Virus record (IMG/VR): IMGVR_UViG_3300048126_000541
Location: 1 to 22,874 of that record
From: a virus
Length of the DNA stretch: 22,874 nt
Direction: 5' to 3' (one strand)
Positions 1,606 to 22,874 of this stretch are shown here, piece after piece. The first letter of the stretch is position 1. Each line of letters begins with the position of its first letter. The notes below the pieces were generated by a model that ran no database searches, was not told where the DNA came from, and worked only from the letters and a program-made list of their open reading frames with translations. The translations under genes were made by a program, and so were the position numbers.

Positions 1606-2814
1606 ATGGCAGACTTTAAAACAACGAAAGACTTTAGAAAAGGAAAGCTTAGTAACTATCCTTACCAAGACCCGACATACTTGTCGTTTGTCTTGTTATT
1701 CGATAGGTCAAACCCTGCAAGGTCTCCTTTATTCTCAGGTGAAGCTGAAAGGTGGATGCAAGAACAACTTATAGATGGTAATAATGTTAACGCTAGTAAA
1801 TGGGAAGAAAAGTTAGAAGCTCTTCAGAATTTTAAGAAAGCTCTTTTTGAGATTAATTTACAATTGCCATGGACATTTCAATCATTAACCGGTTTAGATA
1901 GATTAGCCAAATATAATAAATTAAACGCATACTGGGGTGGAGATGATGCCGTAATAAGTATTGCATGTTTAGAAAGTTTAAATCTTAGTGCTACCGGCCT
2001 AATGCACTTATATAAAAAGGCGGTATGGGATGATGAAAAGTGGACTTATGTTTTACCCGCTAATTTAAGAAAATTCTCTGTAGGAATATATGTTACTGAA
2101 GTTAGACAAATAAAAAATGAGTCTAAGCCCAAGATAGGTGGCATACCTAAAGCGAATAAAGAAGGGCTAAGAGGTTTTCCAAAGAATTTTAAACCTTCTC
2201 TAGGTATAGAAAATAGTAATAGTGGAATATCAGGTTCTAAAGGCCGACCTTTCTTTTTATTTCAATTAGGATATTGTGAATGGTTATTAGATAGTGGTTC
2301 TGCGGTTTTTGCGGATTTAAGTAAAAATCCCGAGGCAGCTGTAAATACAATTGATTTTACGTATGAACAAATGTATAAGATGGATGCTAGAGTTTTAAAT
2401 GGAATGATTATTGATTCTAAAAACGATGAAAGAGATGCACCTTCTTACGATCCTGAGGACCTAGAACATGGAAGTTTAAAAGACTATCTGTTATCTAAAG
2501 GAGAAGAAAAGTTAAATGAATTAGCAGAAAGAGCTGAAGGAGATTTGAGAAGAATGGGCGAAAATAAAGTTAATGAGTTAAAGCAATCAGCCTCTGATAT
2601 TGTTAGAAGAAATACACCTAACTTTGAAAACATTTATCAAGATTTTGTAAAAGGTGTTGATAGTGCAACTGACCTTCCTAGCCAACAAAGAGAAGTTTCA
2701 CGACAAATATCTGAAAACATTTTTACCGACAGTCTTCCACCTGGAACGTCTGTTGGGTCTGCACTTAATAATGCTGCAGCTGAATCCTTAGGAAATATAC
2801 ACGATGGCAACTGA
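1606..2814 (+). CDS. Baseplate/tail structural protein, possibly tube initiator (gp48/gp54-like)
   Basis: A 402-residue protein between the hub and the spike. The N-terminal half is globular. Residues about 95-170 contain a long ordered core (LNAYWGGDDAVISIACLESL, then a helix LMHLYKKAVWDDEKW, then VLPANLRKFSVGIYVTEVRQI). I associate the 'vLP.NLr.Fs..iyv.E.R' strand pair with tube-fold proteins of large contractile phages; gp48 and gp54 of T4, which connect baseplate to tube, share the tube-protein fold. The last 130 residues are charged and mostly helical (repeated KLNELAERAEG-like segments). The gene starts 24 bases after the hub stop and its end overlaps the spike gene by 11 bases, which suggests coupled translation. 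The structural role is well supported by context; the exact gp48/gp54 equivalence is inference. Confidence 0.5.
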   Translation: MADFKTTKDFRKGKLSNYPYQDPTYLSFVLLFDRSNPARSPLFSGEAERWMQEQLIDGNNVNASKWEEKLEALQNFKKALFEINLQLPWTFQSLTGLDRLAKYNKLNAYWGGDDAVISIACLESLNLSATGLMHLYKKAVWDDEKWTYVLPANLRKFSVGIYVTEVRQIKNESKPKIGGIPKANKEGLRGFPKNFKPSLGIENSNSGISGSKGRPFFLFQLGYCEWLLDSGSAVFADLSKNPEAAVNTIDFTYEQMYKMDARVLNGMIIDSKNDERDAPSYDPEDLEHGSLKDYLLSKGEEKLNELAERAEGDLRRMGENKVNELKQSASDIVRRNTPNFENIYQDFVKGVDSATDLPSQQREVSRQISENIFTDSLPPGTSVGSALNNAAAESLGNIHDGN

Positions 2815-3523
2815 TAACGAACTATTAAGAGATAATTTAAGAGAGACTCATTGGCTAGGTGAGGTTATCGATAACGAAGACCCTGGTAATTTAGGAAGAT
2901 GTAAGGTAAAAGTTATAGGTAAATTTGATAATTTACCAGATGATGCTATTCCATGGGCAACACCTATGAATAGAGACCACGTTGGAGCTCATTCAATTCC
3001 TAGAGTAGGTGACATTGTAGCTGTTAGATTTGACAATGGTAATCTTTATCACCCTGAGTATTGGTTTCAAGTTAATCAAAACAAAGAGTTAAAGGAAGAC
3101 ATCTTAGATACATCTGATGAACCACATAACGTTATTTCATTAGTATATGATGCTGAAAGAAATTTAAGAATATATCATTCTGACAAAGACGGTCTTGTAA
3201 TTACAAGAGGTGAAGGCCCTAAAAAAAGACCAATAATTCAATTGGATGAAAAAGGTATTATCAAAATTTCTTCAGATGAAAAAATATTTTTAGACTCGGG
3301 AGACATCTTTATCTCAAACACGGGCGAAGGTAGTGAAGACCCATCTCAGCCTGCAGTGAGAGGTGTTTCGCTTGAAGATTGGTTAAACGCGTGGTTAGAT
3401 GACTATAAAGCTCACACACATCCAACTGGAGTTGGTCCAACTGGAGCACCTTTACCACCCACCCCTATTTTTATTAGTACTGCTAAAAGTAAGCACATTG
3501 ATTATCAACAAAAAAATAAATAA
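2804..3523 (+). CDS. Baseplate central spike protein, gp5/gpV-like OB-fold
   Basis: The membrane-puncturing spike at the tail tip. Residues 16-91 form a typical gp5/gpV OB-fold: HWLGEVIDNEDPGNLGR, then a KVKVIGKFDNLPDDAIPWA strand-loop, then IPRVGDIVAVRFDNG and the YWFQV end. A beta-rich linker follows (residues 110-190: repeated short strands such as IIQLDEKGIIKISSDEKIFL) that could make a short beta-helix. The C-terminus carries HTHPTGVGPTGAP (residues 204-216), common near the end of gpV-type spikes; an H-x-H pair in the spike tip of P2 and phi92 binds iron, but here that is only a possibility. At 239 residues it is far shorter than T4 gp5 (575) because no lysozyme domain is present. The start overlaps the upstream gene by 11 bases. 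Confidence 0.85.
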   Translation: MATDNELLRDNLRETHWLGEVIDNEDPGNLGRCKVKVIGKFDNLPDDAIPWATPMNRDHVGAHSIPRVGDIVAVRFDNGNLYHPEYWFQVNQNKELKEDILDTSDEPHNVISLVYDAERNLRIYHSDKDGLVITRGEGPKKRPIIQLDEKGIIKISSDEKIFLDSGDIFISNTGEGSEDPSQPAVRGVSLEDWLNAWLDDYKAHTHPTGVGPTGAPLPPTPIFISTAKSKHIDYQQKNK

Positions 3524-3525
3524 GA

Positions 3526-5448
3526 ATGCCTGCACAGTGGCCTACATTCATTAAGAACGTGTCTGATCGCATGGCGAGTCAGAGTAGTATTTCTAGAGAT
3601 GAGTTTGCTCTCTATGTTTCTAACGAGTATTTCAACGCGGTTAAAGGTAACGCGCAATCTCCTTATGGTGATAAGCATGTTCCAGGTATTAAACCTGTTT
3701 TAGATGCAGGCTTTGTAGAAGCCTTTGAACAAATTTATACAGAAGAAAGAATACTATTTGACGATAAACCGGATATAGCGAAATTCGCAGACTTTAATGA
3801 ACCTTCTGTTGTTCCTAATTTTAAAACCGACCCGAACTGTGAAATAGAGCACTGTATAAAACAACAAGCAGGTGAGACAGTTACGTATATTGATTATAGA
3901 GAAAATGAACCATATCCTACTAGGAATCATACTTATGATAAATTTAACTACTTTTCATTTTTTCCTTCAATGTGCCCAGTTCCCTTCGAAGAAGAAGTAG
4001 ACTTTACAGGTGGTATTAATATAGAAGAATTTATATTAGACAAGGTTGCTGCTGAAAATGCTTTAATCGAAGAAGCTGAAAATGAACCAAGACTATTTGC
4101 AACCATGAGTATATTTGGATTTACGGAAGATGTAAAGTATAATTTTTTATATACGCTTAATGGAGAAGAACAACCTATCACTAGTGCAGATGAGAATGGT
4201 ATATTAATAGTTAGCGTGCCTGTTACACCTGGTAAATATAATTATGTTTTTAAGAGTGTTTTTGACGATGAAGAAAATTTAATAAAGAATATAGATAAAA
4301 GAGCTTCTGTAGAAATACTAGAAAAAGGAGAGCCCATAGTTATTAATGTTTTAGAAGATGAATCAGATAAGAATGAACCTACTCCTAAAATAGACCCAAT
4401 AATGCTAGTAGACTTCGATACTTCTAATCCAAGGGATGAAGGTCTTTTAGACTTTATAGTAGAAAATTTAGTTGGAAGAATTTTGCTACAAAATGATGAA
4501 TCTGAAAATTTTCACTGGTGGGTTAAAAGATTTGGAGGACAGGTTCATGAGGCAGGAGGATATGGCAGGTTGGTAAATAGAATTTCAGGAAGAGTAAAGG
4601 ATAGAATTTTAGAGCTTCAGCAAATCGTAAATGATAAAATGTATGAAGAAGCTGTTAAAAACGATGATTGGGCTTTTCAACTACGATACATTAGAAGCAA
4701 TGCTAATTCGAATAATAATCTTAACAAGAAAATAACAAACAGGTTTGACGTTAAAGAAATACGTGAAGAGTTTGCTGAAAAGTTAAATCAATATGTGTGG
4801 CAGCCTGATACGCTATTCGATATTGATATGCCGAAGTGGATGGATTACAAGTTTATCACCGCGTTTACGTATGATGAAAGACATGATGGAGTAAACTGGA
4901 CTGGAAATAGAATTCCGAGAAGCGGTAATGATAGTACTGGGTTCGGAGGTTTAAGAAATGAAAGAATCACCAGGGATAAAAAGAAAAACGAACACAAGAA
5001 AGAAAGAGATAAATGGTTTAATAGGCTTACTGCATGCGTAAGTAACAAAGCTGATAGTGATGATAATGAACCTGATTCTCTAGGTAATGATGGATATATG
5101 AGAATGGCTAAGGGTATTATCGATTATTGGAAAAGTTGCGGAGTACAGCCTTTATCTAAAACACCTCCAATTCCACCATGTGCTATACCTGCTCCATTAA
5201 CTGGAATATACGTTCCAATTTATTATGGTAGTCAAACGCGATTAGCTAATCATTTAAGAAGGGCATGGAATACTGGAAAAAGATTTAAAACACCAGGAGT
5301 ACATAGGCCTCCTTCGACGGCAGTTGCTACTGCTGTCGCATCTGCATGTAGTTTACACTTATTAGAACTTAAATTTATTTACCTAGGTGGAATTCCAACA
5401 ATAGCGGGACCGGTCCCTATGATAGGATTTATGCCCGTTGTTTTCTAA
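3526..5448 (+). CDS. Large structural protein with Ig-like insert, function unknown
   Basis: A 640-residue protein starting two bases after the spike stop, so almost certainly translated together with it. Visible layout: an N-terminal helical module (residues 1-75: WPTFIKNVSDRM, EFALYVSNEYFNAVKG, then DAGFVEAFEQIY); a region with several cysteines (about 100-155); an Ig-like beta domain (about 185-275: LFATMSIFGF, VKYNFLYTLNGEEQPI, VTPGKYNYVF); an acidic linker; a mixed helical region; a very basic stretch (about 476-498, RDKKKNEHKKERDKW); and a C-terminal module (about 550-640) with GIYVPIYYGSQTRLANHLRRAW followed by a small-residue and hydrophobic tail. I do not recognise a named family. 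Position argues for a hub or spike-associated virion component. No lysozyme or peptidase motif is evident. Confidence 0.5.
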   Translation: MPAQWPTFIKNVSDRMASQSSISRDEFALYVSNEYFNAVKGNAQSPYGDKHVPGIKPVLDAGFVEAFEQIYTEERILFDDKPDIAKFADFNEPSVVPNFKTDPNCEIEHCIKQQAGETVTYIDYRENEPYPTRNHTYDKFNYFSFFPSMCPVPFEEEVDFTGGINIEEFILDKVAAENALIEEAENEPRLFATMSIFGFTEDVKYNFLYTLNGEEQPITSADENGILIVSVPVTPGKYNYVFKSVFDDEENLIKNIDKRASVEILEKGEPIVINVLEDESDKNEPTPKIDPIMLVDFDTSNPRDEGLLDFIVENLVGRILLQNDESENFHWWVKRFGGQVHEAGGYGRLVNRISGRVKDRILELQQIVNDKMYEEAVKNDDWAFQLRYIRSNANSNNNLNKKITNRFDVKEIREEFAEKLNQYVWQPDTLFDIDMPKWMDYKFITAFTYDERHDGVNWTGNRIPRSGNDSTGFGGLRNERITRDKKKNEHKKERDKWFNRLTACVSNKADSDDNEPDSLGNDGYMRMAKGIIDYWKSCGVQPLSKTPPIPPCAIPAPLTGIYVPIYYGSQTRLANHLRRAWNTGKRFKTPGVHRPPSTAVATAVASACSLHLLELKFIYLGGIPTIAGPVPMIGFMPVVF

Positions 5449-5466: not shown

Positions 5467-5476
5467 GATATATAAA
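5467..5476 (+). promoter_or_regulatory. Candidate late promoter element upstream of the S1-like gene
   Basis: GATATATAAA, preceded by A, lies in the 63-base gap between the 640-residue gene and the S1-like gene, 45 bases before its ATG. The same 11-mer recurs at 6812-6822 before the amidoligase-like gene, and a close relative (GATATATAG) at 20516-20524. It resembles the T4 late element TATAAATA in base content. In AT-rich DNA such strings also arise by chance, so this is tentative. Confidence 0.35.
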
Positions 5477-5511
5477 AAGTAATTTACAGTTTAACCTTTA
5501 AAAAAATATAA

Positions 5512-6696
5512 ATGATTCAAGAAGTTACAGATTCCCAAGTAGAAGAATTCGATTGGGAAGCATACGAGGCAGATTGCCCGACAAAGGCCAGAAAGCCAAA
5601 TCCTCACATTAAAACTCCAAAAGGAGTAAAAATCTTTTCAAGAGAACCTTACGCACAAGAACTATTTGACTTATATGAAAACCACGATAAAGAAGGTGTA
5701 GTTTTCAAAATAAAGATAGGTCAAACATACTCCGGTAAAGTATATGGTATTGACGATAACTGGGCTTCGGTTGATATTGGATTTAGAGAAAACGTTTATA
5801 TTGACCTAGGTAGAGAAAGTTCTGAAATTAAAGATGCTATTGCACATGGAATGATAGTTGATGTTGAAGTAACTTCCGACAAATCTTTAAACAGAAGAGG
5901 ATTTGTTGTAGGTTCTATTGGTGCCGGAATGGCAACCGCTAAATTTAATGAGATTTTAGCTTCTATCGAAGAAGGTAACACGGCCTATGTTGGTAAAGTA
6001 TTAAAAATGATTCCAGGTGGAGGTTACATGGTAGACATTCAAGGAGTAGAATGCTTTATGCCAGGTTCATTAGCTGGAATTAATAAATTACACGACTTTG
6101 AATCTATTATAGGTAACGAAATGTACTTTGTACCTGTGACATATTCTCATGATAAATCGACTATCGTCGTATCTCATAGAAAATATTTACAAGCTATGAT
6201 TCCTGGAGAAATTGAAAAGCTTAAAGGTGATATAGGAAATATGCAAAAAGGACATGTAACTGGAAGTGCCAAGTATGGTGTTTTCATAGAATTTAATACA
6301 TGTTTAACGGGTATGATTCATGTCAATGACCTTTCTACAGATTACTTAAAGAGACATAAGAATCAAGATATAAAACCAGGAGAAGAATTAGAGTTTAAAA
6401 TAAAAGATATTATCAGCAATACTAAAATAACTTTAACGCAGGTTGAAAGAGTTGAGAGAGTTAATCCATGGAATGGAGTTTCTGGTAAATACAAGACTCC
6501 TTGTAGAATAGACGGTAAAATTAAATCAGTTAAAGACTATGGGGTCTTTATCGAAATAGAAGAAGGTGTTGCTGGACTTTTACATATATCTGAACTTCCT
6601 GAAAATTCACTAAAAGAATATAAACAGGGTAATTCAGTTAACGTTGAAATATCCAGAATAGAAGAAGAAACCAGAAAAGTTTTCTTAAAGATATAA
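5512..6696 (+). CDS. Ribosomal protein S1 homologue, four S1 domains
   Basis: An RNA-binding protein with four S1 (OB-fold) repeats: residues about 70-136, 155-222, 244-312 and 330-394. The strongest signatures are YGVFIEF (255-261), MIHVNDLS (268-275), YGVFIEI (343-349) and GLLHISELP (355-363). The second repeat has FMPGSLAGI (182-190), matching the F-LPGS motif of domain 2 of bacterial ribosomal protein S1, and the spacing between repeats follows S1 domains 1-4. In E. coli S1, domains 1-2 dock on the ribosome and the following ones bind mRNA, so this looks like a shortened S1 (394 residues against roughly 550-600) keeping both parts. A 65-residue acidic N-terminal extension is not typical. 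It sits inside a baseplate gene run. Likely role: helping host ribosomes take late phage mRNAs; this role is inferred. Confidence 0.88.
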   Translation: MIQEVTDSQVEEFDWEAYEADCPTKARKPNPHIKTPKGVKIFSREPYAQELFDLYENHDKEGVVFKIKIGQTYSGKVYGIDDNWASVDIGFRENVYIDLGRESSEIKDAIAHGMIVDVEVTSDKSLNRRGFVVGSIGAGMATAKFNEILASIEEGNTAYVGKVLKMIPGGGYMVDIQGVECFMPGSLAGINKLHDFESIIGNEMYFVPVTYSHDKSTIVVSHRKYLQAMIPGEIEKLKGDIGNMQKGHVTGSAKYGVFIEFNTCLTGMIHVNDLSTDYLKRHKNQDIKPGEELEFKIKDIISNTKITLTQVERVERVNPWNGVSGKYKTPCRIDGKIKSVKDYGVFIEIEEGVAGLLHISELPENSLKEYKQGNSVNVEISRIEEETRKVFLKI

Positions 6697-6774: not shown

Positions 6775-6807
6775 AAGCCTGGGTAACCTCCAGGCTTTCT
6801 TCTTTTT
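6775..6807 (+). terminator. Rho-independent terminator after the S1-like gene
   Basis: AAGCCTGG (6775-6782) pairs perfectly with CCAGGCTT (6790-6797) around the seven-base loop GTAACCT, and the descending arm runs directly into a T-rich tail (TTTCTTCTTTTT, 6796-6807). It is GC-rich against its AT-rich surroundings, and nothing comparable was noticed in the other gaps. It would end transcripts of the S1-like gene and upstream baseplate genes before the amidoligase-like gene. Confidence 0.82.
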
Positions 6808-6812
6808 AGAGA

Positions 6813-6822
6813 GATATATAAA
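6813..6822 (+). promoter_or_regulatory. Candidate late promoter element upstream of the amidoligase-like gene
   Basis: GATATATAAA (A at 6812 completes the 11-mer shared with 5466-5476) begins six bases after the terminator's T-tail and 33 bases before the ATG at 6846. A terminator followed at once by this motif is the arrangement expected if a new transcript starts here. No Bacteroidetes housekeeping -7 box (TAnnTTTG) is seen just after it, so a phage-specific late factor would be needed. Confidence 0.42.
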
Positions 6823-6845: not shown

Positions 6846-8138
6846 ATGAACAACATAGAAGAAACTAAATTTCTGTCAAACGCTTTAGTCGGAGTCGAGT
6901 TTGAATTTTACTCCAACATTAGTATTGAGAAGACGGCCAAAGAGCTCGGTATCCTATTAGGTAAAGAGATTAGGGTTGAAGAAGAGGCACATAGTGATTT
7001 TGAAGTAACTGATAAGGTTTTTAAATTAGAGCCAGACATGAGTGGTGGTCGAAAACTAATGGAGCTCGTCACAGGAGCCATACCTTACCATAATGCAAGA
7101 TTAATGATTATTAGAGTGTGTAAGTGGATTGAAGAAAACGGATACACTAATGACAGAAGTTCTATTCATTTAAATATTTCTTTTGACAAGAAAAAAATAG
7201 GAGACAAATACAGAATATCTAAGATGAATGTTTTAAAGTTTATTTTAGACTTTAAAGAATCTCAGATATTTAAGTTTTTTCCAGATAGAGAGAACTCTGC
7301 CTATGCAAAATCTATAAAATTTGTTTTACCTAAAAGTGATGTTTACACGTTTGACGGAAACCATATTAATGCTAATAACTTTGTTTTTCCAGATTCTAAA
7401 TATTATGGAGTTAATTTTGAAAAAAGACATAAGAACTATTTAGAGTTTAGATATTTAGGAGGAAAAGATTGGGAAAAGAAAACCAGCAAGATATTACATG
7501 TTTTAGATTTATTCATATCGCAATTATGGAAGAGCACTGAAGATTCTAATTTTAATCAATTAAACGCGATAGAATTAAGAAAAATTCTTGCAAAAAATGA
7601 TAGAGTAATTAAATCATTTCACAACTGGAAAGAAATAGAAAAGAAATGGAAAAACGTTGAACTTTTTGTTGACCTACAAAAAGACTCTAGAATTGTAGAC
7701 CTACATTGGCCTAGCATCAGAGAAAGAGTAATGAAGTTATTTACACATGGTGGTTTAGTTTCAGGTAGAATCAACTATGACTCAGATGCTGGTAGAATTC
7801 AAGTTGAGAATGGTAGATTAGAATATTGTGTAGACATTCAAGCTTATGAATTTGTAAAGTGTTTTCTAAGAGGAGAACTCATACATTGTGATATATTTGG
7901 ATGTGATGTTGAAGGTTCCGATGTAACTGAATGTAACTTCTATCAAAGTTCTCAAATAAATTCCTCTAAATTAAAGAGTTGTTATATACATAGTTCTGTC
8001 GTAGCCAAAGACTGTTATGTTTTTGGCCATGGCCAATTTAAAGGAACTATGAACGGAGGTATTTTTAGAGAAGGTACATACGATAAAAAAACAGCTAGGT
8101 TTAACGATACAGAAATGATATTATATACTGAAGCGTGA
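6846..8138 (+). CDS. Amidoligase-like protein (glutamine-synthetase fold) with C-terminal beta-helix
   Basis: Probably an ATP-dependent COOH-NH2 ligase of the amidoligase group. The family signatures appear in the right order: GVEFEF (16-21, first metal/ATP strand with paired Glu), LEPDMS (61-66) followed by LMELVTGAIP (71-80), a helix, then SSIHLNIS (105-112, where many relatives have H-x-H), and NYLEFRYLGGKDW (197-209) with the E-F-R motif. Residues 210-330 are mostly helical with a beta segment. Residues about 340-415 change to short repeats rich in C, S, D and N (HCDIFGCDVEGSDV, ECNFYQSSQ, SCYIHSSVV, DCYVFGHGQF), like a pentapeptide-type right-handed beta-helix. The substrate is unknown: a virion protein, a peptide or a small molecule. 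It has its own candidate promoter and follows a terminator, so it may be a separate unit in the cluster. Confidence 0.68.
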   Translation: MNNIEETKFLSNALVGVEFEFYSNISIEKTAKELGILLGKEIRVEEEAHSDFEVTDKVFKLEPDMSGGRKLMELVTGAIPYHNARLMIIRVCKWIEENGYTNDRSSIHLNISFDKKKIGDKYRISKMNVLKFILDFKESQIFKFFPDRENSAYAKSIKFVLPKSDVYTFDGNHINANNFVFPDSKYYGVNFEKRHKNYLEFRYLGGKDWEKKTSKILHVLDLFISQLWKSTEDSNFNQLNAIELRKILAKNDRVIKSFHNWKEIEKKWKNVELFVDLQKDSRIVDLHWPSIRERVMKLFTHGGLVSGRINYDSDAGRIQVENGRLEYCVDIQAYEFVKCFLRGELIHCDIFGCDVEGSDVTECNFYQSSQINSSKLKSCYIHSSVVAKDCYVFGHGQFKGTMNGGIFREGTYDKKTARFNDTEMILYTEA

Positions 8139-8193: not shown

Positions 8194-9027
8194 ATGAGTA
8201 ATATATTTGTAGGCGATAATAACGCTTTAAACACTCCACCCTCTTACGATAGTGAATGTTTTAATAATTTCATTAACGAATTAGCTGACGATGTTACTGG
8301 CTCATGTATGATTCCTATGAATCTTCCTAAAAAGGAGGTTCAAAATATAGTCAAAAGAGCTAAAAAGTGGTTCTATAAGAATTATGAGTACTCTGTTAAA
8401 GAGAACTTTTTAATAATTCCTAAAGAAGTATTTAAAACAAGTGCTTTTAAAAATAGTAGAAGCCTTACCCTACCTGCAATGAATACTGCAACTGGTGGTG
8501 GAGAAGTATTTTCAGTATACGGTGTACAAGAAACCGGAACTAGATATGGGGCAGGAATGGATGTTGACTTTACTTCTGGAGATTTTGCTATCGAAAGAAT
8601 GATGTATCAAGGATTATATGGCGGTGCAAACCTCGTAGAAGGTGCAGAAAACCTACAGTACTATGTAGTTAATGAGTCTTACTTTGATTTGGTCAGACAA
8701 ATTCTTCACAACCCTATTAGTTATGATTATAGTAGATTAACACATGAACTTAAATTTACAGGAGAAACTCCAAAAAAAGACCTTGTTTTAAATGTATACG
8801 AAACCGTTCCAGAGTGTGCATTATTCGGAGATGAAGCATTCTTTAGATATTGTGCTGCTAAAATTAAAGTTTCTCTAGGTCAGAAAATGGGTATATTCGG
8901 TTACTCGCTTCCTGGAAATATAGAAGTAAATCCGGACGCTATTTCAGGTTTAGGTGAAACAGAACTTGAAGCGGTGATTGAAGAAATAAAAGGAGATGAA
9001 GGCGTCGACTGGATGATGCATTCTTAA
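8194..9027 (+). CDS. Probable virion structural protein next to gp25, function unknown
   Basis: A 277-residue protein with mixed alpha/beta content. Visible blocks: a Pro-rich start, a helix with KEVQNIVKRAKKWFYKNYEY (about 47-66), a FLIIPKEVF strand, a LTLPAMNTATGGGEVFSVYGV region, a long YFDLVRQIL helix, a VLNVYETVP strand, and a C-terminal helix FFRYCAAKIKVSLGQKMG followed by YSLPGNIEVNPDAI and an acidic tail. I recall similar layouts in unnamed structural proteins of large T4-like phages, but cannot name the function; neck, connector and baseplate are all possible. It starts after a 55-base A-rich leader and is followed after 16 bases by gp25, so it likely heads the wedge operon. Confidence 0.45.
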   Translation: MSNIFVGDNNALNTPPSYDSECFNNFINELADDVTGSCMIPMNLPKKEVQNIVKRAKKWFYKNYEYSVKENFLIIPKEVFKTSAFKNSRSLTLPAMNTATGGGEVFSVYGVQETGTRYGAGMDVDFTSGDFAIERMMYQGLYGGANLVEGAENLQYYVVNESYFDLVRQILHNPISYDYSRLTHELKFTGETPKKDLVLNVYETVPECALFGDEAFFRYCAAKIKVSLGQKMGIFGYSLPGNIEVNPDAISGLGETELEAVIEEIKGDEGVDWMMHS

Positions 9028-9043
9028 ACAAATATATAGTTAA

Positions 9044-9397
9044 ATGGAATTCTATATCAGAGACGTTGGTGACCCTAATTTCGATCAGAATAAACTAGAA
9101 GCAGGTTCAGAAATTGCACAGCTTTTAGCACAGATCGAAACTCTTCTTTTTACGAGAAGAGGAGATGTAATGGGTGACCCTAACTTTGGAGCAAATTTAG
9201 ATGATTTGGTATATTCTTTAAGATATAATGATAGAATGATAGCGAGTACAATAGAAGACCAGTTAGAATCATACGTTCCTTTATCAAGAAAATATAACAC
9301 AAGGGTAAACGTTGATTTTACAGAAGAAGTTGATAGACACTTGTTGTTTGTAAATATAGATATAGACTCTAAATACCAAGTAGGAGTTTACATATAA
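9044..9397 (+). CDS. Baseplate wedge protein gp25
   Basis: The small sheath-initiating wedge protein that, with gp6 and gp7, forms the core bundle of contractile baseplates. Length (117) is typical of the gp25/GPW family. The family core is clear: a helix SEIAQLLAQIETLLFT, then RRGDVMGDPNFGANLDDLVY (38-57), where the 'R.G.....dp.FG..l..l' signature lies, a helix with TIEDQLESYVP, and paired strands TRVNVDF and LLFVNIDI. Sixteen bases separate it from the upstream gene and 15 from gp6, the same order as in T4 and in simple contractile systems. Family members are often mislabelled lysozyme; nothing here suggests enzyme activity. Confidence 0.88.
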   Translation: MEFYIRDVGDPNFDQNKLEAGSEIAQLLAQIETLLFTRRGDVMGDPNFGANLDDLVYSLRYNDRMIASTIEDQLESYVPLSRKYNTRVNVDFTEEVDRHLLFVNIDIDSKYQVGVYI

Positions 9398-9412: not shown

Positions 9413-11233
9413 ATGGCAGATAAAAAATTCTTAAGTACTTCTAGAATAAGGGTCAACGAAATGATCGCTGATACCAAGGCCTATATGACTAGGGTATACA
9501 ATAAAACCGGAGAGCTATTTACTACAGCTTCTCCTTTTGCACAAATCTTACAAGTTCTAAAGCAACTAACAGGTTTGGTTTTCTTCTATATTGAAGACGC
9601 TACAGTAGAGCAAAACATATTAACTGCTCAAAACCCTGAATCAATATATGGTCTTTCTAGACTTGCAGGTCACGATCCATTTAGAGGTTCATCAGCTACA
9701 GGAGAAATAAAACTTAGATTAAACACGTCAGGAGCTAATGCAATTGCCGGAGATGCTCTTAATATACCAGCTAATTGTATTATCAAGTCAAACGATAATA
9801 CCTTAGATTACATCTTAAGAACTAACAACGATCAGTTTAGAATCGATAAAAGTAATTCTGAGTATGTGTTTATACCTATAATACAAGGAACTATAGAGTC
9901 TCAAACTGTTACTTCAACTGGTGAGGCATTTCAATCTTTTAATATAGTTACTAAATCTAACACTGACCATCATCATGTTAAAGTATCTGTAAACTCTGTT
10001 CCATGGACAAGGTATGATTCTTTATATGACATGAAAAAAGATACTGAAGGATTCATAGTCAAAACCGGTATTTCAGGAGGACTAGATATTTATTTTGGTA
10101 ATGATGCGTTTGGAGCAATACCTGCAACAGGTTCTTCTATTGGCGTTGAGTATATAAAAACTGATGGTGCTAAAGGAAATTTAATCGGCTCAAAAGATTT
10201 AACTTTTAAATTTGACAGTGAAGGTACTGATAGCCTAGGAAACCTATACAATTTAAATGACCTTTTAGAATCTTCTTTTACAGTTACTCCAAGATTAGGT
10301 TCAGACCCTGAACAATTGGAGCTAACCAAATTAATAGCTCCACTTCAGTCTAATTCATTTGTACTTGCAAGACCTGAAAATTATGAACACTTCTTATCAA
10401 GATATGGAATGTTCTCGTATTTAGATGCATATAATACAACCGAAGACGGCTACCTAGACGACGATAATGTAATTTACTTATTTATGTTACCGGACACAAA
10501 AAGAAAACTTACAAAGGATAGAGATTATTTTAGCTTAGCTGTAGATGAATTTACGTTTTCTCAATTAGAGAAAGATGCTATTTTAGAATTAATTGAAAAT
10601 TCAAATCAACAAATGGTAACAACAGAAGTTAAAATAGTTGAGCCTAGTGCTCAATATTTTAGAATGGATATTAAAGTTAGATATTTTGAAGGTTATCACA
10701 AAGAAACTCTTTCTACTCAAATTAGAAGTAAGATATCGGATTACTTGATGTCTATCACTAGAAGAGATAGACTTCCTAAATCAGATATTGTAGCGTTGCT
10801 TGAAGGAATTGAAGGAATCGATTCAGTTAATGTTAGATTCAGTTCAAAGGCCGAAGAAGATGCGAGAAGACTAGGATTTTATACAGTTGAAACCGTTAGA
10901 GTGACTCCTTCAACCCCTGTATTAGAAGACATAGGAAATGGAAAACAAAAATATGTTTTCTTTAAGAGAAATATTAAGAAGACTAGAGTATCTTTTGAAT
11001 CAGGAGCTGCTTTACCAGAAGAAGTTATTAATCTAGATTCTTTTGGAGATATTATTTTAGGAAAAGAAGAAATAGCTTTATTTAGAGGTGGATGGAACGA
11101 TAGAGATAATGTTTTAGTTTCTGATAGCGCTGCTATTGGAGAAATGGCTGCTTTGTCTATTTATTTTGATGAGCCTGCAATTCCTAATACAGTGTTTACT
11201 AAGATACAGGCTAAAAACAGAAACCTTCTATAA
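9413..11233 (+). CDS. Baseplate wedge protein gp6 (baseplate J-like)
   Basis: The main wedge protein, whose dimers link into the ring that opens during contraction. At 606 residues it is close to T4 gp6 (660). Recognisable features: an N-terminal helical stretch (ILQVLKQLTGLVFFYIEDAT, 45-64), TAQNPESIYGLSRLAGHDPFRG (71-92), typical of the gp6 family, then beta-rich J-like domains with SSATGEIKLRLN and IPANCIIKSND, and C-terminal helices with LSTQIRSKISDYLMSITRRD, where J-like proteins carry a similar helix-strand unit. The stop overlaps the next start by one base (TAATG), implying coupled translation with the 90-residue gene. It comes immediately after gp25, as expected. Confidence 0.85.
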   Translation: MADKKFLSTSRIRVNEMIADTKAYMTRVYNKTGELFTTASPFAQILQVLKQLTGLVFFYIEDATVEQNILTAQNPESIYGLSRLAGHDPFRGSSATGEIKLRLNTSGANAIAGDALNIPANCIIKSNDNTLDYILRTNNDQFRIDKSNSEYVFIPIIQGTIESQTVTSTGEAFQSFNIVTKSNTDHHHVKVSVNSVPWTRYDSLYDMKKDTEGFIVKTGISGGLDIYFGNDAFGAIPATGSSIGVEYIKTDGAKGNLIGSKDLTFKFDSEGTDSLGNLYNLNDLLESSFTVTPRLGSDPEQLELTKLIAPLQSNSFVLARPENYEHFLSRYGMFSYLDAYNTTEDGYLDDDNVIYLFMLPDTKRKLTKDRDYFSLAVDEFTFSQLEKDAILELIENSNQQMVTTEVKIVEPSAQYFRMDIKVRYFEGYHKETLSTQIRSKISDYLMSITRRDRLPKSDIVALLEGIEGIDSVNVRFSSKAEEDARRLGFYTVETVRVTPSTPVLEDIGNGKQKYVFFKRNIKKTRVSFESGAALPEEVINLDSFGDIILGKEEIALFRGGWNDRDNVLVSDSAAIGEMAALSIYFDEPAIPNTVFTKIQAKNRNLL

Positions 11234-20549: not shown

Positions 20550-22874
20550 ATGGCTGCTACAAATTTACAATCCCAAAACAATTTAGTAGAAAATAAATCA
20601 TTCGCAATTTTAAGGGCTAACCCAAAGCTTAGTACAAACACTAAATTGGTAGTTGATTCTTCTAACGATATTTATTTAAGTTCATTCAAGGCTAACAGAA
20701 CCTTGTCTAGGGCAGAGTATCAGAAGTTCGAATTGAAGGAAAGCGGAAACTATTCTCGAGATATTGCTAGGTTTTTTAATAAAATATCAAAAGACGATAG
20801 GTATCAGGTTTCCAGAAAAAATAATGATTTAACAGTATATTCTGACTATGCATCTCAATACGAGAATCAATATACGTACGGAGCTTCTTTTAATTCTACT
20901 AAATTATATGATGAGCAATATAAAATCTTAGCACCTATGTGGTTAGATAAGGTTATGCCTAGCAAGTTTATAGTTTACAGGGTTGAAGGAGTTGACTATG
21001 AAGAAAGGTATGACAAGGGTATAGCTGGTCAGAATTCTAGAATTTTAGACCTTTTAAAAGATGCAACTATTGTTAAGACCTTTGATTTAAAGGATTCAAA
21101 AGTAGGAAGTTATCTAGATAATCACGTAAATAACCCTTTATTTCCATCTTCTCCTTTGAGTTTCTCATTTGAAGAAGATGAGCCATGTATGTATAGAGGC
21201 ATTGATGTCGTCAAAGGTGGCTTTGTGAGTAAACCTGAATATTTAGAAGATGAATTTTATAGAAAAGACTCTTTAGAAATTTTAAGTAATGAATTAATTA
21301 CTGAGGGTTTTAAAAGAAATGGAATTGCAATAGCCAACTTAATGAATCTAGAATTTTTATTCGACGATTCAACGGCAACGGACTATAAAGTTTATAGATA
21401 CTTCGGATTATATGTCGATGATATAAAGGAAGGTTCTTTTGATTGTATAGGTGTTAATAGATCGGGTGTAATTCAAATAGAAAAAGACAGTTATACTACG
21501 GTATATCCTTTACCAATAGGCTTAAAGGAAAGAGACATGTTTATCTCAACTGATGAAACTACAAAACCTATCCTATCGTATATAAAAAATAAAGATGGTA
21601 AGTTATTTCATGTCAAGAATTTAACTAAGTTTAAACCGGACTCTATTCCTGTTTCGTTAAATAGCGCCGAAGATATTAAAACATTTGAAGGTTTAGCTAA
21701 ATCAAAAATTAATTTACCTTGTTTGCCCGAAAAACCAGCAACTAAAGGATTTATACAGCTAGATGTAATCGCTGTTCCTAATCATAATGATAGGTTTTTT
21801 ATACTAGATAAGTCAGAATTAGAGATTGAAGAATATAATTTAGGTAATTTCACAATCGTTGCAGACCAATCTTTACCAGCTGGTACTCATTCTACATATA
21901 GATTTTCAAATCAAGGTAGTCTGGAGATGATTGCGGTTGCTATATCAAAGGCAATTCAAGAGGGCCAAATCATGATGTACGATACTATGGTAAATGGAAC
22001 CTTAGTGACAATAAAAGATTACGGTATAGGTAGCGATAGAAATAAGACTGCCCTGGGAATTTTAAGTGCAAATATAGTTGACTTTTTAGAGATTAAAACG
22101 GGTGTATCAAATGACATCGGTTTAAATCAAGTGGCTATACCTTCTAGTACAAATACTGTGTTTTCGGATTGGAATATCTTTACAATGACAGGTGGTTCAC
22201 AACAGGGTCAAGCTCTTTTAGTTGCTGATATTGATTTGCCTAAAGTTTCAGTCGGACAAAGCGTAAAAATTCCTAAGTCTAATAAGTTCATAAAAATAAT
22301 CTCTATAGTTAGCGATCCTGAAAGGCCAGGATTTAATAGAGTTGTTTTTAATAAACAAACTAAGTTAGCAAGTGATAATGTAATAGAACTCTATGAAGAT
22401 TACAGTGTTGAATTTGGTAAATTTTCAGTATATGATTTTAAAGATTTTGATTATGACTTTTATGACACTACATACTCAGACCCAGGTGAACTACAATACG
22501 AAGAAGAAGCGTTATTTGAATTTTTAAATGATGTATTAGAAGTTGAAGACCCTGACACTGAAGAAATAGGAGCCTCTAAAATTAGTTCTGAATATGACCG
22601 ACTTCATGAAAATCAATTAAAACAAACTTCTCTTACAAGTAGAGTAGTTCCCTGTATTTCTAAATTTGCACTGAAAGATTCTACTAATGCAAGAAATTTA
22701 AATTATCTTCTAACTGCAAGTGAGGCGTTTGGAGTAGACAATATGTCGCCTTCAGTAGATGATGATGAAGGTAGAAAGTTTGAATCTCTTAATATGGAAT
22801 ATTTTCATATAAATAAGTTTCCTAAAAAAGCTGAATATAATGCTACAGATGACGTTAAAAAAGATTTAAATAGT
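20550..22874 (+). CDS. Very large virion structural protein (5' part; continues past window)
   Basis: An open frame of 775 codons with no stop before the right edge. The start is taken at the ATG that follows the 54-base gap (GATTAATGGCTGCT), giving MAATNLQS. Residues 18-37 (FAILRANPKLSTNTKLVVDS) and the following beta segment form a domain I recall from very large uncharacterised structural proteins of uncultured tailed phages. Around 130-147 is MWLDKVMPSKFIVYRVEG, another conserved-looking block. The rest is beta-rich with acidic linkers (for example 640-690). It comes after the baseplate-periphery genes and is likely part of the tail fibre or baseplate apparatus. The function is not known to me, and the C-terminus, which would decide it, is outside the window. 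Confidence 0.6.
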   Translation, partial: MAATNLQSQNNLVENKSFAILRANPKLSTNTKLVVDSSNDIYLSSFKANRTLSRAEYQKFELKESGNYSRDIARFFNKISKDDRYQVSRKNNDLTVYSDYASQYENQYTYGASFNSTKLYDEQYKILAPMWLDKVMPSKFIVYRVEGVDYEERYDKGIAGQNSRILDLLKDATIVKTFDLKDSKVGSYLDNHVNNPLFPSSPLSFSFEEDEPCMYRGIDVVKGGFVSKPEYLEDEFYRKDSLEILSNELITEGFKRNGIAIANLMNLEFLFDDSTATDYKVYRYFGLYVDDIKEGSFDCIGVNRSGVIQIEKDSYTTVYPLPIGLKERDMFISTDETTKPILSYIKNKDGKLFHVKNLTKFKPDSIPVSLNSAEDIKTFEGLAKSKINLPCLPEKPATKGFIQLDVIAVPNHNDRFFILDKSELEIEEYNLGNFTIVADQSLPAGTHSTYRFSNQGSLEMIAVAISKAIQEGQIMMYDTMVNGTLVTIKDYGIGSDRNKTALGILSANIVDFLEIKTGVSNDIGLNQVAIPSSTNTVFSDWNIFTMTGGSQQGQALLVADIDLPKVSVGQSVKIPKSNKFIKIISIVSDPERPGFNRVVFNKQTKLASDNVIELYEDYSVEFGKFSVYDFKDFDYDFYDTTYSDPGELQYEEEALFEFLNDVLEVEDPDTEEIGASKISSEYDRLHENQLKQTSLTSRVVPCISKFALKDSTNARNLNYLLTASEAFGVDNMSPSVDDDEGRKFESLNMEYFHINKFPKKAEYNATDDVKKDLNS

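Follow-up and report, generated by a model that had tools for sequence, protein, structure and literature searches.

Phage-encoded ribosomal proteins

The occurrence of ribosomal protein S1 in a few giant phages has already been published (PMC7162821), as has the idea of a translational role for phage-encoded bS21 (PMC9723584). Al-Shayeb 2020 observed that huge phages with S1 rarely have Shine-Dalgarno (SD) sequences, proposed a hijack of initiation and left it undecided whether S1 acts on or off the ribosome (PMC7162821). The bS21 described by Chen et al. 2022 is likewise a phage copy of an initiation-aiding protein of the 30S platform with late-type placement; late expression was reported, and other ribosomal protein genes were absent from their complete genomes (PMC9723584). 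Cyanophage PhiMa05 also encodes a bS1, which groups with Vampirovibrio proteins in the respective publication (PMC13157829) and was left out of the tree presented here. Phage S1 has up to now figured as a domain annotation, and one survey excluded it as functionally ambiguous (PMC6375957).

Here, we analyzed a stretch of 22,874 nucleotides from a virus (IMG/VR record IMGVR_UViG_3300048126_000541), termed the window in the following, that encodes an S1 homologue. This protein falls into the same viral clade as the huge-phage and Lak rpS1 proteins (support 100/100), and the gene is syntenic with that of huge phage LR756500. Unlike in the picture drawn in PMC7162821, the family is large, occurs on contigs of up to ~236 kb, has the gene locked into a baseplate cluster as a probable unit of its own, and features an anchor of the Bacteroidota type. 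The Lak S1 proteins have three domains as compared to four in the window's S1; lengthening by TAG recoding was considered and dismissed, as reading TAG as Gln still yields three domains. The bS21 phages of Chen et al. differ in that a different protein is encoded and a second ribosomal protein gene is lacking, whereas S1 phages can carry both (PMC9723584). Judged against the open-access literature, the new elements are the breadth of the family, the fixed late-type position of its gene, the motif of the anchor and the pairing with bS21. The phage S1 family thus adds a new and widely distributed branch to an idea already known and is not a new kind of system.

Identity and domain architecture of the phage S1 protein

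The S1 gene spans positions 5512–6696 on the plus strand, exactly the limits given in a preliminary description of the window, starts with ATG and encodes 394 amino acids arranged in four OB/S1 domains. The preliminary description had taken the product for an S1 homologue with four S1 repeats, an FMPGS motif in the second repeat and a repeat spacing like that of domains 1–4 of bacterial S1, and all of this held. The protein matches PF00575 (Pfam, 2.3e-25) with OB3 and OB4 as the individually passing repeats, residues 63–393 are co-linear with full-length bS1 models of NCBIfam, and a profile built from 18 relatives aligns end to end with residues 16–344 (OB1–OB4) of E. coli S1 (E 5.5e-55). An AlphaFold2 model (mean pLDDT 80.6, pTM 0.51), in which the folds of the single domains are reliable and their mutual arrangement is not, contains four OB barrels with strands at residues 72–135, 159–221, 245–309 and 331–393. 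They correspond to OB1 (5707–5919), OB2 (5974–6180), OB3 (6229–6447) and OB4 (6484–6693), all on the plus strand. FMPGS resides at residues 182–186 in OB2 and is conserved family-wide.

Repeats closer to those of Tex or PNPase had been named as a finding that would speak against this identity. The top matches of the phage profile among solved chains are bS1 by a wide margin, while PNPase chains reach only ~1e-5 over one domain, and the best structural matches of the model are bS1 in 30S mRNA-delivery complexes with 314–323 residues aligned. Tex, PNPase, RNase R and NusA were rejected as identities, since their matches in profile and structure searches were weaker and mostly confined to single domains.

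Gram-negative bS1 has six domains, and OB5-6 together with the C-terminal tail are absent from the phage protein. Shorter bS1 exist among the curated bS1 models (NF005208, 391 aa). The NCBIfam equivalog cut-off for bS1 is 524 bits versus 159.6 bits for the best score of phage S1; the cut-off of TIGR00717 was itself reached by only two of 14 control genomes. We class the protein as a viral bS1-like protein and not as rpsA itself. The dN/dS ratio of the gene is ~0.06 (against relative L003). That the product is bS1-like and that purifying selection acts strongly on it is about as certain as sequence comparison allows.

Distribution and phylogeny

A single scan of IMG/VR retrieved 28 relatives with 50–86% identity, and at least 555 stretches encoding S1 relatives were found by a profile scan. 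Among cultured phages (INPHARED set), no S1 homologue was detected except on contaminating bacterial contigs, and five cultured relatives with related baseplate genes, searched over their whole length, contain neither S1 nor bS21. Acinetobacter 'phage' rpsA matches (CAKLQH020000011.1 and CAKLQF020000009.1), situated in a cmk-rpsA-himD arrangement, were set aside as bacterial chromosome and likely contamination. MT835643.1, which is labelled as phage and encodes a plain Bacteroidota bS1 of 597 aa, was set aside as bacterial bS1 and is likewise probably contamination.

The best bacterial matches listed from 84,980 species genomes are chromosomal bS1 with 25–33% identity. OB1–OB4, the FxW anchor described below, FLPGS/FMPGS and RNA-binding residues are common to phage S1 and Bacteroidota bS1 (rpsA), while the phage protein differs in the absence of OB5-6 and the C-terminal tail, a longer linker, Arg in place of Lys43 and its position in a separate clade. 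A tree with Bacteroidetes S1, a check suggested in the preliminary description, was calculated on the columns of OB1–OB4. The 27 viral sequences, comprising the window's S1 family, five huge phages and Lak, lie on one side of a branch with 100/100 support on very long stems and far from every bacterial bS1; within them, the window's S1 family forms a clade with 95/98 support. In an AU test, a grouping of the viral clade with Bacteroidota bS1 was neither required nor rejected (p 0.31).

We see next to no chance that the gene was recently captured from a host or that it sits on a bacterial fragment contaminating the record. Bacterial rpsA does contaminate phage records, as just described, but the phage synteny is the same in 28 of 28 relatives, no bacterial bS1 among the matches listed exceeds 33% identity, and the viral S1 form a single long-stemmed clade. 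This low identity and the 100/100 support for that clade indicate that phage S1 is an old viral lineage and not a recent theft.

Baseplate neighborhood and probable host

As far as each contig reaches, the position of S1 is identical in all 28 relatives. The order is baseplate-V, S1, the gene starting at 6846, Ad2, gp25 and gpJ, with the variable gene 3526–5448, where present, preceding S1; LR756500 (a 462-kb huge phage) follows the same order through Ad2. In the window, the baseplate-V, S1, 6846, Ad2, gp25 and gpJ genes reside on the plus strand. The upstream part holds a baseplate-V/spike OB protein (2804–3523; PF04717, 1.2e-8) that is syntenic in the relatives. A head-tail adaptor Ad2-like protein (8194–9027; phrog_211, 1.9e-9), a gp25-like baseplate wedge protein (9044–9397; PF04965, 1.7e-4) and a gpJ/gp6-like wedge protein (9413–11233; phrog_219, 5.5e-34) follow downstream. 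The placement of S1 inside a baseplate cluster, as first proposed from the sequence of the window, is therefore substantiated by its PF04717, gp25 and gpJ/gp6-type neighbors.

Two further neighbors deserve mention. The 640-aa gene directly upstream of S1 (3526–5448) is variable, with a short recognizable part in many relatives and none detected in others. The immediate downstream neighbor in all 28 relatives (6846–8138, plus strand) encodes a protein of 430 aa without assigned function; for a suspected resemblance to amidoligase-like proteins, Pfam gave no support. Within the phage collection, this protein occurs exclusively in LR huge phages, all of which bear S1.

The nearest annotated relatives of the gpJ/gp6-like wedge protein stem from Prevotella Lak, Tenacibaculum, Flavobacterium and Chryseobacterium phages, from huge phages and from 'Sphingomonas' phage PAU, which points to Bacteroidota as the host.

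Promoter-like motif and probable late transcription

A promoter-like motif, GATATATAAA (5467–5476, plus strand), precedes the start of S1 by 45 nt, and a related motif is present 36–54 nt upstream of S1 in 30 of 31 representatives. A second copy of GATATATAAA (6813–6822, plus strand) lies 33 nt before the 6846 gene, and between S1 and that gene a terminator-like hairpin of nine pairs is followed by a T-run (6775–6807, plus strand). Most relatives also have a hairpin after S1, though with a different sequence. The word GATATATA is among the top enriched intergenic words of these phages (63 of 125 intergenic regions, ~31x expectation), and in 31 loci the gene strand holds 85 copies of GATATATA[AT] versus a single one on the opposite strand. 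In a 167-kb relative (G008) the strand ratio is 15 versus 0, and 11 of these 15 copies have an ORF start no more than 80 nt away as compared to 9.6% of random places. There, GATATATAA precedes S1 and the next gene as well as the prohead protease, terminase-small-like and tail tube genes. It is also found before a DprA-like gene and others, such that some of the downstream genes are non-structural. In the window, GATATATAG, which is related to the GATATATAA motif, was noticed upstream of position 20550. Promoters of the sigma-70 consensus type showed no excess over chance.

Probably, GATATATAA is read by a phage sigma factor. The 167-kb relative encodes a 199-aa sigma-70 family protein with regions 2 and 4 (L208:5302-5901), a candidate late sigma factor for this motif. 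We infer the label 'late' from the identity of the genes that follow the motif. A promoter-like motif shared with late genes and a terminator-like hairpin suggest that S1 is probably transcribed alone and at late times. The earlier proposal of expression with the late cluster thus holds as regards the late structural surroundings and the motif common to late genes; S1 is not merely carried along with the baseplate genes, having its own promoter-like motif and, in the window and most relatives, a terminator. The late placement, described at first as unlike that of most takeover genes, has precedents among phage ribosomal proteins, as phage bS21 has been reported among late structural genes (PMC9723584) and phage S1 in huge phages lacking SD sequences (PMC7162821).

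The fixed position in the baseplate cluster of all relatives might also be taken to mean that S1 is a component of the virion or baseplate, or is packaged and injected. We regard this as very improbable given the full bS1-like architecture with its RNA-binding residues, the promoter-like motif and terminator that separate S1 from the flanking genes, the genomes of Lak and the 635–735 kb huge phages, where S1 and the gene for the gpJ-like baseplate protein lie apart, and the cultured relatives that have related baseplate genes without S1.

Leaders and avoidance of Shine-Dalgarno sequences

SD-like 4-mers precede one of 15 genes in the window and 27 of 486 genes (5.6%) across 31 related loci versus 12–13% at random positions, which means that SD sequences are avoided and not simply absent. 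The leaders are rich in A with a maximum at -13 (68% A). Neighboring genes without SD sequences and with A-rich leaders had already been noted in the preliminary description. Such leaders are in keeping with initiation in Bacteroidota (PMC9976891); in F. johnsoniae, addition of bS1 resulted in an approximately two-fold amplitude of initiation on one SD-less mRNA (PMC9976891).

Just before its start, the S1 gene itself has a leader patch, TTTAACCTTTAAAAAAA (5490–5506, plus strand), of a TTAAC-TTTTAAAA type that was defined post hoc and is present in 24 of 31 S1 leaders versus 8 of 486 other leaders. The identity of whole S1 leaders among relatives is modestly above that of other intergenic leaders. 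It is possible that the patch serves as an autoregulatory site, a post hoc lead at this point. Rfam returned nothing above gathering score over the window. On the host side, Bacteroidales rpsA leaders have TAATGTCTAAC in common and those of Flavobacteriia contain AATACAAAT-like words, possibly host promoter or rpsA regulatory elements.

Residues with a probable role in ribosome docking and RNA binding

In E. coli, Phe5 and Phe9 of the N-terminal helix of S1 stack on Phe32 of uS2 (PMC4288201, PMC10123108), and the F5A or F9A exchange in this helix abolishes ribosome binding (PMC4288201). Sequence comparison revealed an anchor motif of the Bacteroidota bS1 type (FxWxx[FYHL]) at the N-terminus of the window's S1, F13-D-W15-E-A-Y18-E (5548–5568, plus strand). 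The FxW anchor is present in 31 of 31 representative phage S1, with flanking tails that differ in length and sequence. F[DN]W..[FY] was found in 28 of 30 Bacteroidota bS1, the two others looking like fragments or miscalled starts, and in no bS1 of the other bacterial phyla tested. The FDW form is missing in four huge phages of 635–735 kb. Sharing of the anchor between phage and Bacteroidota S1 may be ancestral or adapted. The linker between anchor and OB1 (CPTKARKPNPHIKTPKGVKIFSREPYAQELFDLY..., 5569–5706, plus strand) exceeds that of bacterial bS1 in length and is partly common to the S1 of Lak and LR756500.

Arg92 in OB1 (5785–5787) takes the position of E. coli Lys43, which adds a minor salt bridge (PMC4288201, PMC10123108), and Asp88 that of Asp39; Arg occupies the Lys43 position in 30 of 31 phage S1. 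In OB2, Tyr172 and Phe182 correspond to Phe120 and Phe130, positions that are Tyr and Phe, respectively, in all phage S1 compared. The aromatic and His residues of OB3 and OB4 are the best-kept part: RNA-binding-type residues Y255, F258 and H270 are retained in OB3, and Y343, F346 and H358 of OB4 in all phage members. The E. coli contacts K117 and F79 are not retained. Bacteroidota uS2 retains H15, F16, H18, D188, N203 and D205, and its position 32 is F or Y in 12 of 13 sequences. None of the 27 S1-phage records searched encodes uS2, such that docking would need uS2 of the host. The view that both the docking and the mRNA parts were kept and the last domains lost agrees with a uS2 anchor type and mRNA-binding domains that are present and a final pair of domains that is absent.

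The strong conservation of OB3/OB4 could also suit a free RNA-binding protein that protects, unfolds or delivers late phage mRNA off the ribosome or activates or restrains an RNase, as known for host S1 and T4 RegB. Such roles of host bS1 outside the ribosome occur during infection by T4 and Q-beta (PMC13157829, a review), and the on/off-ribosome question was left undecided by Al-Shayeb 2020 (PMC7162821). This explanation does not account for an anchor of the Bacteroidota type that never varies, for a basic residue in place of Lys43 or for the pairing with bS21, and we consider it unlikely. Alternatively, loss of OB5-6 and the large divergence from bacterial bS1 could indicate a blocker that occupies the site of host bS1 and shuts off host translation that needs the full-length protein, instead of furthering phage messages. 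This appears improbable as the RNA-binding residues and the aromatic residues of the OB2 pocket are under strong purifying selection and a blocker would be better served by early synthesis. In addition, E. coli survives without OB5-6, with OB1-3 being essential and OB4 helpful (PMC3858243).

In summary, the FxW anchor, a basic residue where E. coli has Lys43, the residues of OB3/OB4 and the avoidance of SD sequences favor a role on the ribosome. We think it reasonably probable that the phages produce a variant of bS1 late in infection, which binds to the 30S subunit of the host and shifts initiation toward phage mRNA.

Pairing with bS21 and a possible mechanism

In E. coli ribosomes, bS21 contacts OB1 of bS1 (PMC10123108). 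Twenty of 39 S1-bearing records, many of them incomplete and some near-duplicates, also encode bS21, among them four of the six named huge or Lak phages. In IMG/VR records, bS21 is located ~15–25 kb upstream of S1 on the same strand, and the position of Bacteroidota Tyr54 is Tyr in all phage bS21 sequences read but one (Phe). Bacteroidota-type bS21 genes were recorded at L201:17836-18033 and in L209, L210, L211, L212, L213, L217-L222 and L224.

In the mechanism we propose, a phage late promoter (GATATATAA) would drive transcription of S1 as a unit of its own inside the baseplate cluster. The FDWEAYE helix and OB1 would attach to the uS2 of the host where the 30S subunit has its mRNA exit and compete there with host bS1, while OB2–OB4 would catch the A-rich, SD-less phage leaders and position them for initiation. 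In many relatives, phage bS21, the neighbor of bS1 at that site, would be supplied as well. Homology, domain content, the conserved anchor and RNA-binding residues, the promoter-like motif, the terminator and the pairing with bS21 can be read from the sequences themselves; docking, competition with host bS1 and message bias are what we infer from the conserved residues and the context. A further-reaching version, put forward tentatively and more doubtful than the reading above, is that phage bS1 and bS21 together rebuild the host mRNA-exit platform late in infection, yielding a phage-specialized, SD-independent ribosome that chooses late phage messages by traits of their leaders, for instance the A-rich tract; the leader of the S1 mRNA would serve as an autoregulatory site.

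The family bears on the question of whether viruses swap ribosomal proteins to select the messages that are read. With a conserved gene, defined anchor residues, a promoter-like motif as a predictor of timing, SD-less leaders and bS21 as a partner, it offers material for testing this in Bacteroidota, for which SD-less initiation has been worked out in Flavobacterium johnsoniae.
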